From NCBI GenBank assembly GCA_017448845.1, contig JAFSKT010000136.1, forward strand, positions 1 to 32,255: a stretch of DNA of 32,255 nucleotides, read 5' to 3'. The position numbers were made by a program, and so were the translations under genes. The DNA is from Lachnospiraceae bacterium (GTDB taxonomy: Bacteria > Bacillota > Clostridia > Lachnospirales > Lachnospiraceae). Shown one piece after another: positions 2,430 through 11,802 of the stretch (position 1 is its first letter; each line of letters begins with the position of its first letter). A model generated the notes under the pieces. The model searched no databases. It worked only from the letters and a program-made list of their open reading frames with translations, and was not told the origin of the DNA.

Positions 2430-2493
2430 AATACCGTATGACCATCAATGACATAAGGTTTCTGTCATCAACGGATCAGATCCCCCGAACAGT

Positions 2494-2521
2494 ATTATAT
2501 CAGTTTGCCGCCGCTTTACAA
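2494..2521 (-). promoter_or_regulatory. Probable promoter of the EAL gene
   Basis: A perfect -10 TATAAT (2494-2499) is preceded by TTGTAA (2516-2521, four of six) with a 16-base spacer. Predicted initiation is near 2487, giving a leader of about 58 bases. Confidence 0.6.
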
Positions 2522-2572
2522 CTGTCTCACCCGGATTGCATTGTACAGGCGGTTTATGATATCTTTTTAAGC

Positions 2573-3874
2573 ATGAGAAAACCAATGCTTTTAACAATAT
2601 TATCACTTACTATTCTCCTTTGCTCATGTGAAGCGGTTTCCAAAACAACCGCCGTTCCGGAGACATCCGAAAAGCCTTCCGAGGAAACTCCCATAGTGCT
2701 TGACGGATCCGGGAGATCCGTGGAACAGGAAACTCCGGAAAAAGAGGAGGGCGATGTGATCAATATCCCAACAGAAGAAACCCTTCCGGAACCCCCTTCA
2801 GAAGTTGAAGTCCCGGAAGAAGAGGAACCCCCTTCATTTGAAGGCTATGTCCTCTCCGAAGAGGATGTGTCCGAAAACGGCATCTACTTAAAGAGCGTTA
2901 AAGAACCCGGAAAGGTGGTCATAGACTTTGCGGGGGACATCAATTTCGACGACAGATACGCCATCATGAATTCCCTCCGCAGCAGAGGCGGCGGAATATC
3001 TACTTCCATTGACCCCGTTCTCATTAAACGTAGCAATGATGCGGATATCTTCATGATCAACAATGAATTCCCCTACAGCAACAGGGGAACTCCCCTTCCC
3101 AACAAAAAGTTTACCTTCCGGGCCAGGCCGGAAACGGTCAACTATATGAAGGATCTTGGGGCAGACATAGTAAGCCTTGCAAATAACCACGCCTTTGACC
3201 ACGGTGAAGAGGCGCTCCTTGATACCTTTGACACCCTTGATGACGCAGGGATCCCCTATGTGGGAGCAGGCCACATCCTTGAAGAGGCCATGAAACCCGT
3301 GTATTTCATAGCCGGCGGCATGAAGATCGCCTTTGTGTCAGCCACCCAGATAGAGCGGAGCCTTCCGCCGGACACAAGAGAGGCTACGGATGACAGTCCC
3401 GGAGTATTAAGGACTCTGGATCCTGAAAAGTTTCTGACCGTTATAAGAAACGCAAAGGAAAACAGCGACTTTGTTATAGCATACGTGCACTGGGGAAGCG
3501 AAAACACCAATATATACGAGGCTGCCCAGACGGAGCTTGCCAAAGTCTATGTGGATGCAGGGGCTGACCTCATCATAGGAGACCACCCCCATGTACTCCA
3601 GGGGATCACCTATATCGGAGATGTCCCCGTCCTTTACAGCCTCGGGAATTATTGGTTCAGCTCGAAGACTCTGGACAGCTGTCTTGTGGAAGCGGTAATA
3701 AAGGATAAGCGACTTGAATCCCTGCAGTTCATACCCTGCCTGCAGAAAGGCTGCTACACCCATGCCCTTTCTCCGGGCTCCGGGGAATATGCCGGGGTAT
3801 TGGAAAAAATGAGAAACTGGTCCACGGATAATGTGGATATAGACGGCGACGGGTTTATAAGAAAACGTCAATAA
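2573..3874 (+). CDS. CapA-family (PGA_cap) metallophosphatase-like lipoprotein
   Basis: From this start the protein has 433 aa and begins MRKPMLLTILSLTILLCSCE, a type II signal peptide with a plausible lipobox (LCSC). An acidic, Glu/Pro-rich linker of about 75 residues follows, then a CapA/YwtB-type calcineurin-like domain. Metal-binding blocks are visible: AGDI, NNEFP, LANNHAFDHG, YVHWGSE and IGDHPHV, with SLGNYWFSS near the end. Family members support poly-gamma-glutamate capsule synthesis or act as envelope phosphoesterases; no pgsB/C genes are nearby, so the substrate is unknown. An in-frame ATG at 2438 would add 45 non-hydrophobic residues before the signal peptide and leave only 8 bases between divergent genes, so 2573 is preferred, although neither start has a good Shine-Dalgarno site. 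A strong terminator follows. Confidence 0.85.
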   Translation: MRKPMLLTILSLTILLCSCEAVSKTTAVPETSEKPSEETPIVLDGSGRSVEQETPEKEEGDVINIPTEETLPEPPSEVEVPEEEEPPSFEGYVLSEEDVSENGIYLKSVKEPGKVVIDFAGDINFDDRYAIMNSLRSRGGGISTSIDPVLIKRSNDADIFMINNEFPYSNRGTPLPNKKFTFRARPETVNYMKDLGADIVSLANNHAFDHGEEALLDTFDTLDDAGIPYVGAGHILEEAMKPVYFIAGGMKIAFVSATQIERSLPPDTREATDDSPGVLRTLDPEKFLTVIRNAKENSDFVIAYVHWGSENTNIYEAAQTELAKVYVDAGADLIIGDHPHVLQGITYIGDVPVLYSLGNYWFSSKTLDSCLVEAVIKDKRLESLQFIPCLQKGCYTHALSPGSGEYAGVLEKMRNWSTDNVDIDGDGFIRKRQ

Positions 3875-3880
3875 GTTAAG

Positions 3881-3910
3881 AAAAGCGGCCCCGAGGTAGG
3901 GCCGCTTTTT
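3881..3910. terminator. Bidirectional intrinsic terminator
   Basis: A perfect 7-bp stem GCGGCCC (3885-3891) / GGGCCGC (3899-3905) is flanked by TTTTT on the plus side and AAAA on the left, which gives a T-run on the minus side. It can end capA rightward and fucO leftward. Confidence 0.88.
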
Positions 3911-3924
3911 GTTGCTCGTTTAGG

Positions 3925-4026
3925 TTGTACTCAGGCTTGAAGCCTGAGTACAATCCTGCTTCGCAGGACACGTTTCTTTCAGAAACGTGCCATATCGCTA
4001 CGGATTTTTTCTGAAGGAAAAAATCC
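3925..4026. repeat. Row of four hairpins, three directly abutting
   Basis: Hairpin A has perfect 13-bp arms (3925-3937, 3941-3953) and a TGA loop. Hairpin B has 6-bp arms (3954-3959, 3963-3968) and a TTC loop. Hairpin C has 9-bp arms (3969-3977, 3981-3989) and a TTC loop. A, B and C touch with no spacer. After 12 bases comes hairpin D with 10-bp arms (4002-4011, 4017-4026) rich in A/T. The row fills the gap between the terminator and the fucO stop codon. It resembles an intergenic REP/MITE-like palindromic element; no terminal repeats or target duplication were recognised. On the minus strand it would form the 3' end of fucO mRNA. Confidence 0.75.
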
Positions 4027-4031
4027 TCCGC

Positions 4032-5177
4032 TCACATCAACTGTCTAAACATGGCCTCGAAATCAGCGAGTTCTGCGTGTCTCGGGTTGCCGGGAGCGCA
4101 GGCATCTGCAGCTGCTGACTCGCAAAGGAAAGGCAGATCCTCTTCCTTAAGCTTCTCAAGCTTTGTAGGAATACCAACATCAACAGAAAGCTGGCGAACC
4201 GCATCGATAGCGGCTTTCCTGTATGCCTTCTCATCCATTCCGGTGGTATCTACGCCAAAGGCCTCTGCTATATTCTTAAACTTGGTTCCTGTATACTCCT
4301 GATTGAATTCCATAACTATGGGAAGCATCATAGCGCAGGCTACGCCATGAGGTGTGTCATAAACAGCACCAAGGGTATGAGCCATGGAATGTGCGATTCC
4401 GAGACCTACGTTTGAATAAGCCATAGCTGTTACATACTGGGCAAGAGCCATTCCCTCTCTTCCGTCGGGATCGTTCTCAACAGCCTTGCGAAGGTTCTTT
4501 GCAATGAGCTGGATAGACTCTAAGTTCAGAACATCGGCAAGTTCCCAGGCTGCGCCTGTAGTATAGCCTTCGATAGCGTGGGTAAGAGCATCCATACCTG
4601 TAGAAGCTGTAAGTCCCTTGGGCATTGAAGACATCATGTCGGGGTCTACTACTGCAATATCGGGAATGTCGTTAGGGTCAACGCAGACAAACTTCCTCTT
4701 CTTCTCAACATCAGTGATAACGTAGTTTATTGTGGACTCGGCACCTGTACCGCCTGTGGTGGGAACCGCAATGGTGAATACCGTGCGCTTCTTTGTGGGA
4801 GCAACGCCCTCAAGTGAACGAACATCAGCAAACTCAGGGTTATTAACGATTATACCGATACCCTTACCTGTATCCATGGAAGAACCGCCGCCGATGGTGA
4901 TCATGCAGTCAGCACCTGACTTTTTATATGCCTCAACACCGTGCTGTACATTCTCGATGGTCGGATTCGGCTTGATATCGGAATAAAGCTCGAACGCAAT
5001 GCCATTCTTCTCAAGAAGATCTGTAACCTTCTTTGTTACCCCAAACTTTACAAGATCGGGATCGGAAGCTACGAAAGCCTTCTTGTATCCCCTGGCTGTG
5101 ATAAGACCCGGTATCTCCTGGATCGCACCGTGTCCGTGATATGAAATCCCATTAAGCACAAAACGATTAACTGCCAT
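4032..5177 (-). CDS. fucO: Lactaldehyde reductase (FucO-type iron-dependent alcohol dehydrogenase)
   Basis: The 381-aa protein is a type III Fe-dependent alcohol dehydrogenase close to E. coli FucO in length and sequence. The NAD(P)-binding GGGSSMDTGK lies at 97-106. The four iron ligands fall on Asp196, His200, His263 and His277, the same numbers as in FucO, within MDALTHAIEG and HSMAHTLG.VYDTPHG. Blocks such as NNPEFADVRSLEG, TINYVITD and KFVCVDPNDIP are shared with FucO. The enzyme interconverts L-lactaldehyde and 1,2-propanediol, used to reoxidise NADH during fucose or rhamnose fermentation; an ethanol or butanol dehydrogenase role is the alternative. GAGGAGG lies 7 bases before the ATG. 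It is monocistronic with its own promoter, and no fucose or rhamnose genes are visible. Confidence 0.88.
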   Translation of the reverse strand: MAVNRFVLNGISYHGHGAIQEIPGLITARGYKKAFVASDPDLVKFGVTKKVTDLLEKNGIAFELYSDIKPNPTIENVQHGVEAYKKSGADCMITIGGGSSMDTGKGIGIIVNNPEFADVRSLEGVAPTKKRTVFTIAVPTTGGTGAESTINYVITDVEKKRKFVCVDPNDIPDIAVVDPDMMSSMPKGLTASTGMDALTHAIEGYTTGAAWELADVLNLESIQLIAKNLRKAVENDPDGREGMALAQYVTAMAYSNVGLGIAHSMAHTLGAVYDTPHGVACAMMLPIVMEFNQEYTGTKFKNIAEAFGVDTTGMDEKAYRKAAIDAVRQLSVDVGIPTKLEKLKEEDLPFLCESAAADACAPGNPRHAELADFEAMFRQLM

Positions 5178-11718: not shown

Positions 11719-11802
11719 AAATGTCCACCGGACATTTGTCCGGGGCACTGTCGCGCTCGGCGCGCCAAAGCGTGCCCGCGAAATGTCCCCCGGACATTTC
11801 GC
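11719..11802. repeat. Row of three hairpins with a repeated palindrome
   Basis: Hairpin 1 is AAATGTCC/GGACATTT with an ACC loop (11719-11737). Hairpin 2 is GGGCAC/GTGCCC (11743-11748, 11772-11777) enclosing CGCGC/GCGCG (11752-11764). Hairpin 3 has perfect 11-bp arms (11778-11788, 11792-11802) with a CCC loop and repeats the palindrome of hairpin 1. No T-run follows any of them. The row lies between the GT-C stop and the Shine-Dalgarno site of the yjfB-like gene, so it could be its 5' leader. Its organisation, abutting stems with three-base loops, resembles the row at 3925-4026 although the sequences differ. Confidence 0.7.

Follow-up and report, generated by a model that had tools for sequence, protein, structure and literature searches.

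A dispersed four-hairpin repeat family of Lachnospiraceae, often placed at stop codons, with one copy behind fucO

The hairpin block between capA and fucO

The window (the whole stretch of Lachnospiraceae DNA that was analysed, 32,255 nt) contains a convergent gene pair, a capA-like gene and a fucO-type gene, with a block of hairpins between them. The features of this region are as follows.

2438..3874, plus strand: capA-like gene with a PGA_cap domain, the convergent neighbour (open reading frame and Pfam)
3881..3909, no strand assigned: terminator-like hairpin, 11 bp and a T run, between the element and capA and not part of the element
3925..4034, minus strand: the whole four-hairpin element, read in the fucO sense as stop TGA, GCGGA, D, linker, C, B, A
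3925..3953, minus strand: hairpin A, 13 bp
3954..3968, minus strand: hairpin B, TCCTGC-GAA-GCAGGA, with the cap C-GAA-G
3969..3989, minus strand: hairpin C, 9 bp with a GAA loop; all 11 seed sequences have the outer CA...TG
3990..4001, minus strand: linker GTAGCGATATGG, whose final letters start the conserved TGGCA motif
4002..4026, minus strand: hairpin D, 10 bp, 5-nt loop
4032..5177, minus strand: fucO-type iron-containing alcohol dehydrogenase, 381 aa (open reading frame; Pfam Fe-ADH and ADH_Fe_C)

On the plus strand, perfect stems of 13 bp (TTGTACTCAGGCT-TGA-AGCCTGAGTACAA, 3925-3953), 6 bp (TCCTGC-TTC-GCAGGA, 3954-3968), 9 bp (CACGTTTCT-TTC-AGAAACGTG, 3969-3989) and 10 bp (GGATTTTTTC-TGAAG-GAAAAAATCC, 5-nt loop, 4002-4026) were found. 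This confirmed the four perfect hairpins that the initial annotation had reported between the two genes, the first three of which (A, B, and C) abut with zero spacer, while D is set apart by 12 bases (3990-4001). Since its loop has 5 nt, D falls outside the three-base-loop class of the other hairpins. It had been described as a hairpin that follows the other three; it is present, although it is not a mere follower and belongs to the unit as its 5' module, read on the minus strand. Two extra pairs, GC with GC, were predicted outside D, and the fucO stop TGA at 4034-4032 abuts the element. The terminator previously said to adjoin the hairpins was recovered as the terminator-like hairpin at 3881-3909, separate from the element.

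The region 3920-4034 was predicted to fold as RNA at −53.2 kcal/mol on the minus (fucO) strand (z −8.22) and at −52.0 kcal/mol on the plus strand (z −8.58), and none of 200 shuffles folded as well on either strand. The folding check proposed earlier thus placed the block far below shuffled sequence on both strands (z about −8). Across the whole window, perfect hairpins with arms of at least 9 and loops of 3-8 number six, four of them within 3881-4026 (the terminator and three of the four element hairpins), compared with a mean of 0.9 and a maximum of 2 in 20 first-order Markov sequences of whole window length.

A dispersed repeat family in Lachnospiraceae

For searches, 11 copies were aligned over C-B-A and made into a covariance model (R1), the E-values of which are rough. 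Alignments of all four hairpins were rejected as model input because D or A arms were misaligned. The R1 match on the window copy covers 3923-3992 at 87.8 bits, this copy being one of the model's own training sequences. The genome of the window (84.9% complete) gave four R1 matches at E ≤ 1, namely, the window copy, C85:538-607, C34:40667-40730, and the degenerate C65:2093-2146. In the genus, matches were found in 21 of 48 genomes including the window's own (E ≤ 0.01), with the most in G004 (22) and G006 (21); these counts include opposite-strand overlaps and weaker copies belonging to a second form, which differs in its C module. A wider family sample yielded matches in 5 of 299 genomes, own included (E ≤ 1e-4), and a DNA search yielded matches in 8 of 99 genomes including the own one, all of one genus and many at other genomic places. 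A pattern scan of named genomes returned 13 stretches, partly from the same genomes as the genus and family sets: 11 were from metagenome-assembled genomes (MAGs) named Lachnospiraceae or Eubacterium sp., 7 of which name rumen, omasum, or abomasum in their titles, and one was from Eubacterium uniforme ATCC 35992 (L127). A stretch from a Dinoroseobacter MAG (L136) was rejected as a family copy, as its 19.1 bits look like chance. Rfam gave no match to the block at the gathering score (best 28.7 bits versus 50 in a low-threshold search), and the four Rfam matches on 15 sequence sources were none of them on an element.

From these data the block was concluded to be one copy of a noncoding, dispersed four-hairpin repeat family of Lachnospiraceae, with the order D-C-B-A and a length of about 110-130 nt. 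The initial annotation had proposed a search of the host genome and its relatives and had regarded a single occurrence without conservation as evidence against an element; this situation does not apply, since related copies with compensatory changes were found in both. Its suggestion of a mobile palindromic element of the REP/MITE class is likewise supported by the copies in the own genome and in relatives. The result adds a REP-like system for Lachnospiraceae, with many rumen MAGs among the carriers; no earlier description was found in the literature searched on such repeats or on REP/RAYT systems in the clade or phylum, where the repeat was undescribed at the level of titles and abstracts.

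In the printed copies, D mostly lies upstream of C-B-A in fixed order; the exceptions are inner tandem copies, tRNA-adjacent copies (L046, L085, L089, and L137), and some degenerate or cut copies. The fixed letters are few: TGGCA 5' of C and TGTCC 3' of C. A is mostly preceded by TT and followed by AACC, and the loop of D is often ATCAG-like. The B cap C-GAA-G was present in 55 of 69 distinct parsed copies. Two copies, L046 (C34:40667-40730 of the own genome) and L137, represent a variant lacking D that adjoins a putative antisense tRNA gene, with identical flank in two genomes. A second form (L062-L064, L066, L067, L093, L095, L143, and L165) has the same D, B, and A and a different C module, which reads GACCAG-like ... 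GCGTGTC with the end AAGTCA. Twelve places in G006 matched the B region of this second form in the DNA search.

Dispersal within genomes was evident from nearly identical copies found at loci that are otherwise unrelated. G019 has a 117-base unit in four copies that are 99 to 100% identical over their full length with unrelated flanks, and in a fifth copy that is identical at 99% over 91 of the 117 bases, again with differing flanks; G004 has a similar set of near-identical copies. The copies of these two genomes are mostly bordered by TATAG and CTATA-like letters, which the window copy lacks. Single A or D hairpins with TATAG/CTATA borders were also seen (L169 48-92 and L082), as if one hairpin were a unit.

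A Y1 transposase or RAYT was considered as the mobilizer and rejected. The own genome (85% complete) gave no match to Y1_Tnp (PF01797), and the matches in 22 of 48 genus genomes do not track the presence of the element. At 30 Y1 loci of congeners no adjoining element was found, the sole R1 match at E ≤ 5 having an E-value of 0.19, and a hairpin listing of nine Y1 loci showed other palindromes or none.

Stop codons and stem pairing

The repeat often begins right at the stop codon of an upstream open reading frame on the same strand. Eighty-two copies were considered for this analysis (L127, identical in sequence to L190, was excluded), and 12 with short flanks were omitted, leaving 70 with 260 bases on both sides. 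A copy was scored as anchored if a same-strand open reading frame of at least 80 codons ended in a 31-base interval at the D end. This applied to 31 of the 70 copies, compared with 6 of 70 in the mirror control (A end, other strand). The stop ends 26 to 39 nt before TGGC in two registers, 26-32 (n = 16) and 35-39 (n = 15). Anchored copies span four genera, genes of other genera (G238, G320, and G262) being among the anchored ones, and were also seen in two named MAGs; four of the anchored genes in G238 have the window's leader TGAGCGGAG. The remaining 39 copies were not anchored. Of the five G019 copies, four are in this group and one adjoins a small open reading frame of 91 aa. The placement counts are not independent, because orthologous sites (fucO, atpB, ACT, and nucleoside kinase) and related copies are included; with these and four anchoring frames held doubtful (L065, L073, L083, and L086) taken into account, about 20 independent genes remain by our reading. 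The element also lies inside operons, as atpB-[element]-atpE, gcdB/oadB-[element]-oadA (names read from translations), and ACT-[element]-DUF711 (Pfam).

Stem pairing is kept while the stem letters change. In the C-B-A stems of the 11 seed sequences, 94.6% of 294 cells were paired, and double changes occurred in 20 of 27 pairs, with 66 double-compensated cells. The covariation score was 0.625, versus 0.199 for shuffled sequences and at most 0.195 for slid partners; a weaker one of the five covariation measures, further pair types, gave 35 versus 30.8 and was reached by 50 of 500 shuffles. A strict hairpin parser that penalizes mismatches parsed 74 of 83 copies (9 dropped; 69 distinct) and gave 2283 Watson-Crick, 10 G-T, 4 A-C, and 25 other pairs in the distinct copies. 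With a milder penalty (D, C, and A), the figures were 1972, 23, 7, and 73, respectively. On the sense strand G-T outnumbers A-C (23 versus 7), which suggests that this strand does the folding, either as RNA or as single-stranded DNA, both of which fit this lean alike. By rough Vienna folding, the G-U share was 5.0% for sense, 2.0% for antisense, and 10.3% for 75 terminator-like hairpins.

The same behavior was seen at the fucO site itself. R1 finds C-B-A behind fucO in the window's genome (G000) and in six other species (G004, G006, G008, G025, G027, and G028), the fucO genes of which are 84.7 to 88.1% identical to the window's over the last 900 nt. No R1 match was found behind fucO in eleven genomes with a 63 to 90% identical FucO protein (L032-L042). 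Recent arrival, which had been offered as one reason for the perfect arms, is not supported for the window copy, because six congeneric species carry C-B-A at the same place. Relative to the window copy, the arms at this site differ widely, mostly by double changes: five double and one single in arm A of both G004 and G025 and three and three in that of G008, two double in arm B of G025, and three double and one single in arm D of G004, G025, and G008. The loop of hairpin C is GAA in G000 and TTC in G004. In G006, G028, and G027, D is replaced by another perfect palindrome behind the fucO stop. Such a D-replacing palindrome has a GCGAAGC cap in L029, L049, and L052.

At two further sites the host stop codon was found inside hairpin D. 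With R1, 2 of 18 atpB loci (G028 and G008) proved to hold the element. In both carriers, D starts within the gene and its outer 5' arm is formed by the end of the last codons and the stop, the arms being GGGTTAG/CTAACCC in G028 and GGGATAA/TTATCCC in G008. The AtpB protein ends EG or EE in 18 of 18 cases, from which the gene end was deduced to be native, and the last codon base plus TAG in the G028 gene are peculiar to that genome. For the ACT gene, the element was found in 2 of 30 loci (the own genome and G008), and 30 of 30 genes end MHR(I/L/V)-stop. D at this site has GGATCTGA as the arm from the gene end and stop and TCAGATCC opposite; the letters of GGATCTGA are also present in element-free orthologues (G004, G018, G028, G034, G019, and G023). 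Since element-free orthologues end likewise, the gene ends at both loci are native, and part of D is therefore host coding sequence, with the partner arm following the host. Chance complementarity over 7 to 8 bases is unlikely. Given shared ancestry, there would be at most two to three independent events of this kind. The ACT locus of G035 has an apparent remnant by eye, below R1 detection. G028 has two atpB genes (L204 and L221) that resemble each other at 94%, only one of which carries the element, and its assembly may mix two strains.

Relation to known repeats and possible action

The nearest known systems are the REPs. Those of other bacteria adjoin the 3' ends of open reading frames, with GTAG ends often supplying the stop, in the text available from Di Nocera et al. 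(2013; PMC3733652), and the present repeat shares with them the form of dispersed extragenic palindromes near gene 3' ends (31 of 70 anchored). In that same text, Firmicutes, Clostridi, Eubacterium, Butyrivibrio, and Roseburia are not mentioned. The GTAG and CGTC super-families are described there as having a tag at one end, whereas the 5' flank of D reads GGAG, GTAG, GAAG, or TATAG, differing among copies, so that no consistent GTAG/CGTC tag is apparent. REPs usually number more than 100 per genome in the account of PMC2817692; four R1 matches were found in the own genome and at most 22 per congener, weak copies possibly being missed. A RAYT (Y1) gene flanked by the repeat was found neither in the own genome nor at the 30 Y1 loci of congeners, and the repeat differs further in having four different hairpins in fixed order. 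It is REP-like but departs from REPs in its copy number and in that no linked RAYT was found at these loci, and its tag appears inconsistent. REPINs and BIMEs (as portrayed in PMC3116915 and PMC2817692) are similar as composite palindromic units replicated within a genome. BIMEs, however, contain REPs alternating in orientation according to PMC2817692, while the present repeat runs D-C-B-A in one direction and the tandems seen are direct.

The reading we favor, at a probability of roughly 0.6, is that of a dispersed, REP-like four-hairpin repeat that acts as a structured 3' end of the upstream cistron. Copies would have spread by a transposition-like process and been kept, or tolerated, right after stop codons, and this view is the best supported one. 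Those within operons or behind genes would be transcribed, giving the upstream cistron a folded, structured 3' end. Their action may resemble that of stop-near E. coli REPs, as a barrier to 3' exonucleases, by an effect on terminating ribosomes, or by uncoupling the downstream gene. In E. coli, REPs that lie within 15 nt of a stop codon reportedly cause ribosome stalling and reduce output (PMC12306157, citing Liang et al. 2015), and protection of RNA against exonucleases by REP structures is reported as well (PMC12306157). A strong hairpin directly after the stop is shared with these, while sequence and anatomy are unrelated. The window copy would set the behavior of the fucO mRNA 3' end, ahead of the separate terminator. 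An RNA at this 3' end, as proposed in the initial annotation, is compatible with the data and favored by strand and stop anchoring; judged from the sequence, it is a putative one. Copies such as that between atpB and atpE point towards a device placed after stop codons within operons, in which the following gene may have to be expressed at another level.

The same dispersal could also be that of a selfish, MITE-like repeat with no host function, mobilized in trans, perhaps via single-stranded DNA hairpins, and persisting where harmless, that is, after stops. The near-identical dispersed copies of G019 and G004, mostly not stop-anchored, would be expected from it, as would their TATAG...CTATA-like borders and the solo hairpins with such borders. 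MITEs of IS200/IS605-type (single-stranded DNA) transposons are noncoding, contain hairpins, and occur as dispersed near-identical copies, all of which the repeat shares, although no parent element was seen beside the 30 Y1 loci and neither a consistent terminal repeat nor a target duplication could be made out. The B cap C-GAA-G (55 of 69) matches in its letters GCGAAGC, a DNA mini-hairpin of very high stability described in PMC4686876. It was nevertheless considered a rather unlikely account overall, since the tight stop-codon register in four genera and the paired stems at fucO in seven species exceed what tolerance alone predicts, and the Y1 search found no mobilizing gene. Tandem ordinary terminators or attenuators were deemed highly improbable. 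The site behind a gene and the strong hairpins would suit them, but the GC-rich hairpin followed by a T run of an intrinsic terminator is absent from the element, as no T run follows any of its four hairpins on either strand; the proper terminator is separate, at 3881-3909, and copies lie between operon genes such as atpB and atpE.

The matching of the arms has to be weighed apart from this; part of the data agrees with selection on the folded strand and part with template switching. Template switching within a hairpin at replication, reported in the portion of PMC8794818 available to create and maintain hairpins, would make the arms complementary mainly by copying rather than by selection on the fold, yielding a self-perfecting palindrome. 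It would explain why, at atpB and ACT, the 3' arm of D exactly complements the last codon(s) and stop of the gene itself, and likewise the mostly double changes at the fucO site, the nearly exclusive Watson-Crick pairing of the strict parse, and the GAA versus TTC loops of hairpin C. As the main cause it nonetheless appears doubtful: the G-T lean on the sense strand and the commoner G-U pairs in sense than in antisense folds argue for selection acting on a folded strand, mismatches are penalized by the strict parser and some arms are imperfect, and the D arms at fucO are not host sequence. A more specific and still less probable version holds that a mobile palindrome captures the host stop, landing at a gene end where fold-back copying extends D into the gene and all arms are rewritten in step. 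The same copying would then produce covariation without stepwise compensatory selection. The value of covariation as proof of RNA function depends on this distinction, and the matched sites with, without, and with rewritten stems allow the two to be separated.

Two further features of the window were recorded. One is a perfect hairpin at 11778-11802, with arms of 11 bp, a loop of 3 bases, and no T run after it. On the minus strand at 292-430, Rfam identified a ribosomal protein L10 leader (RF00557) at 54.8 bits versus a gathering score of 44.
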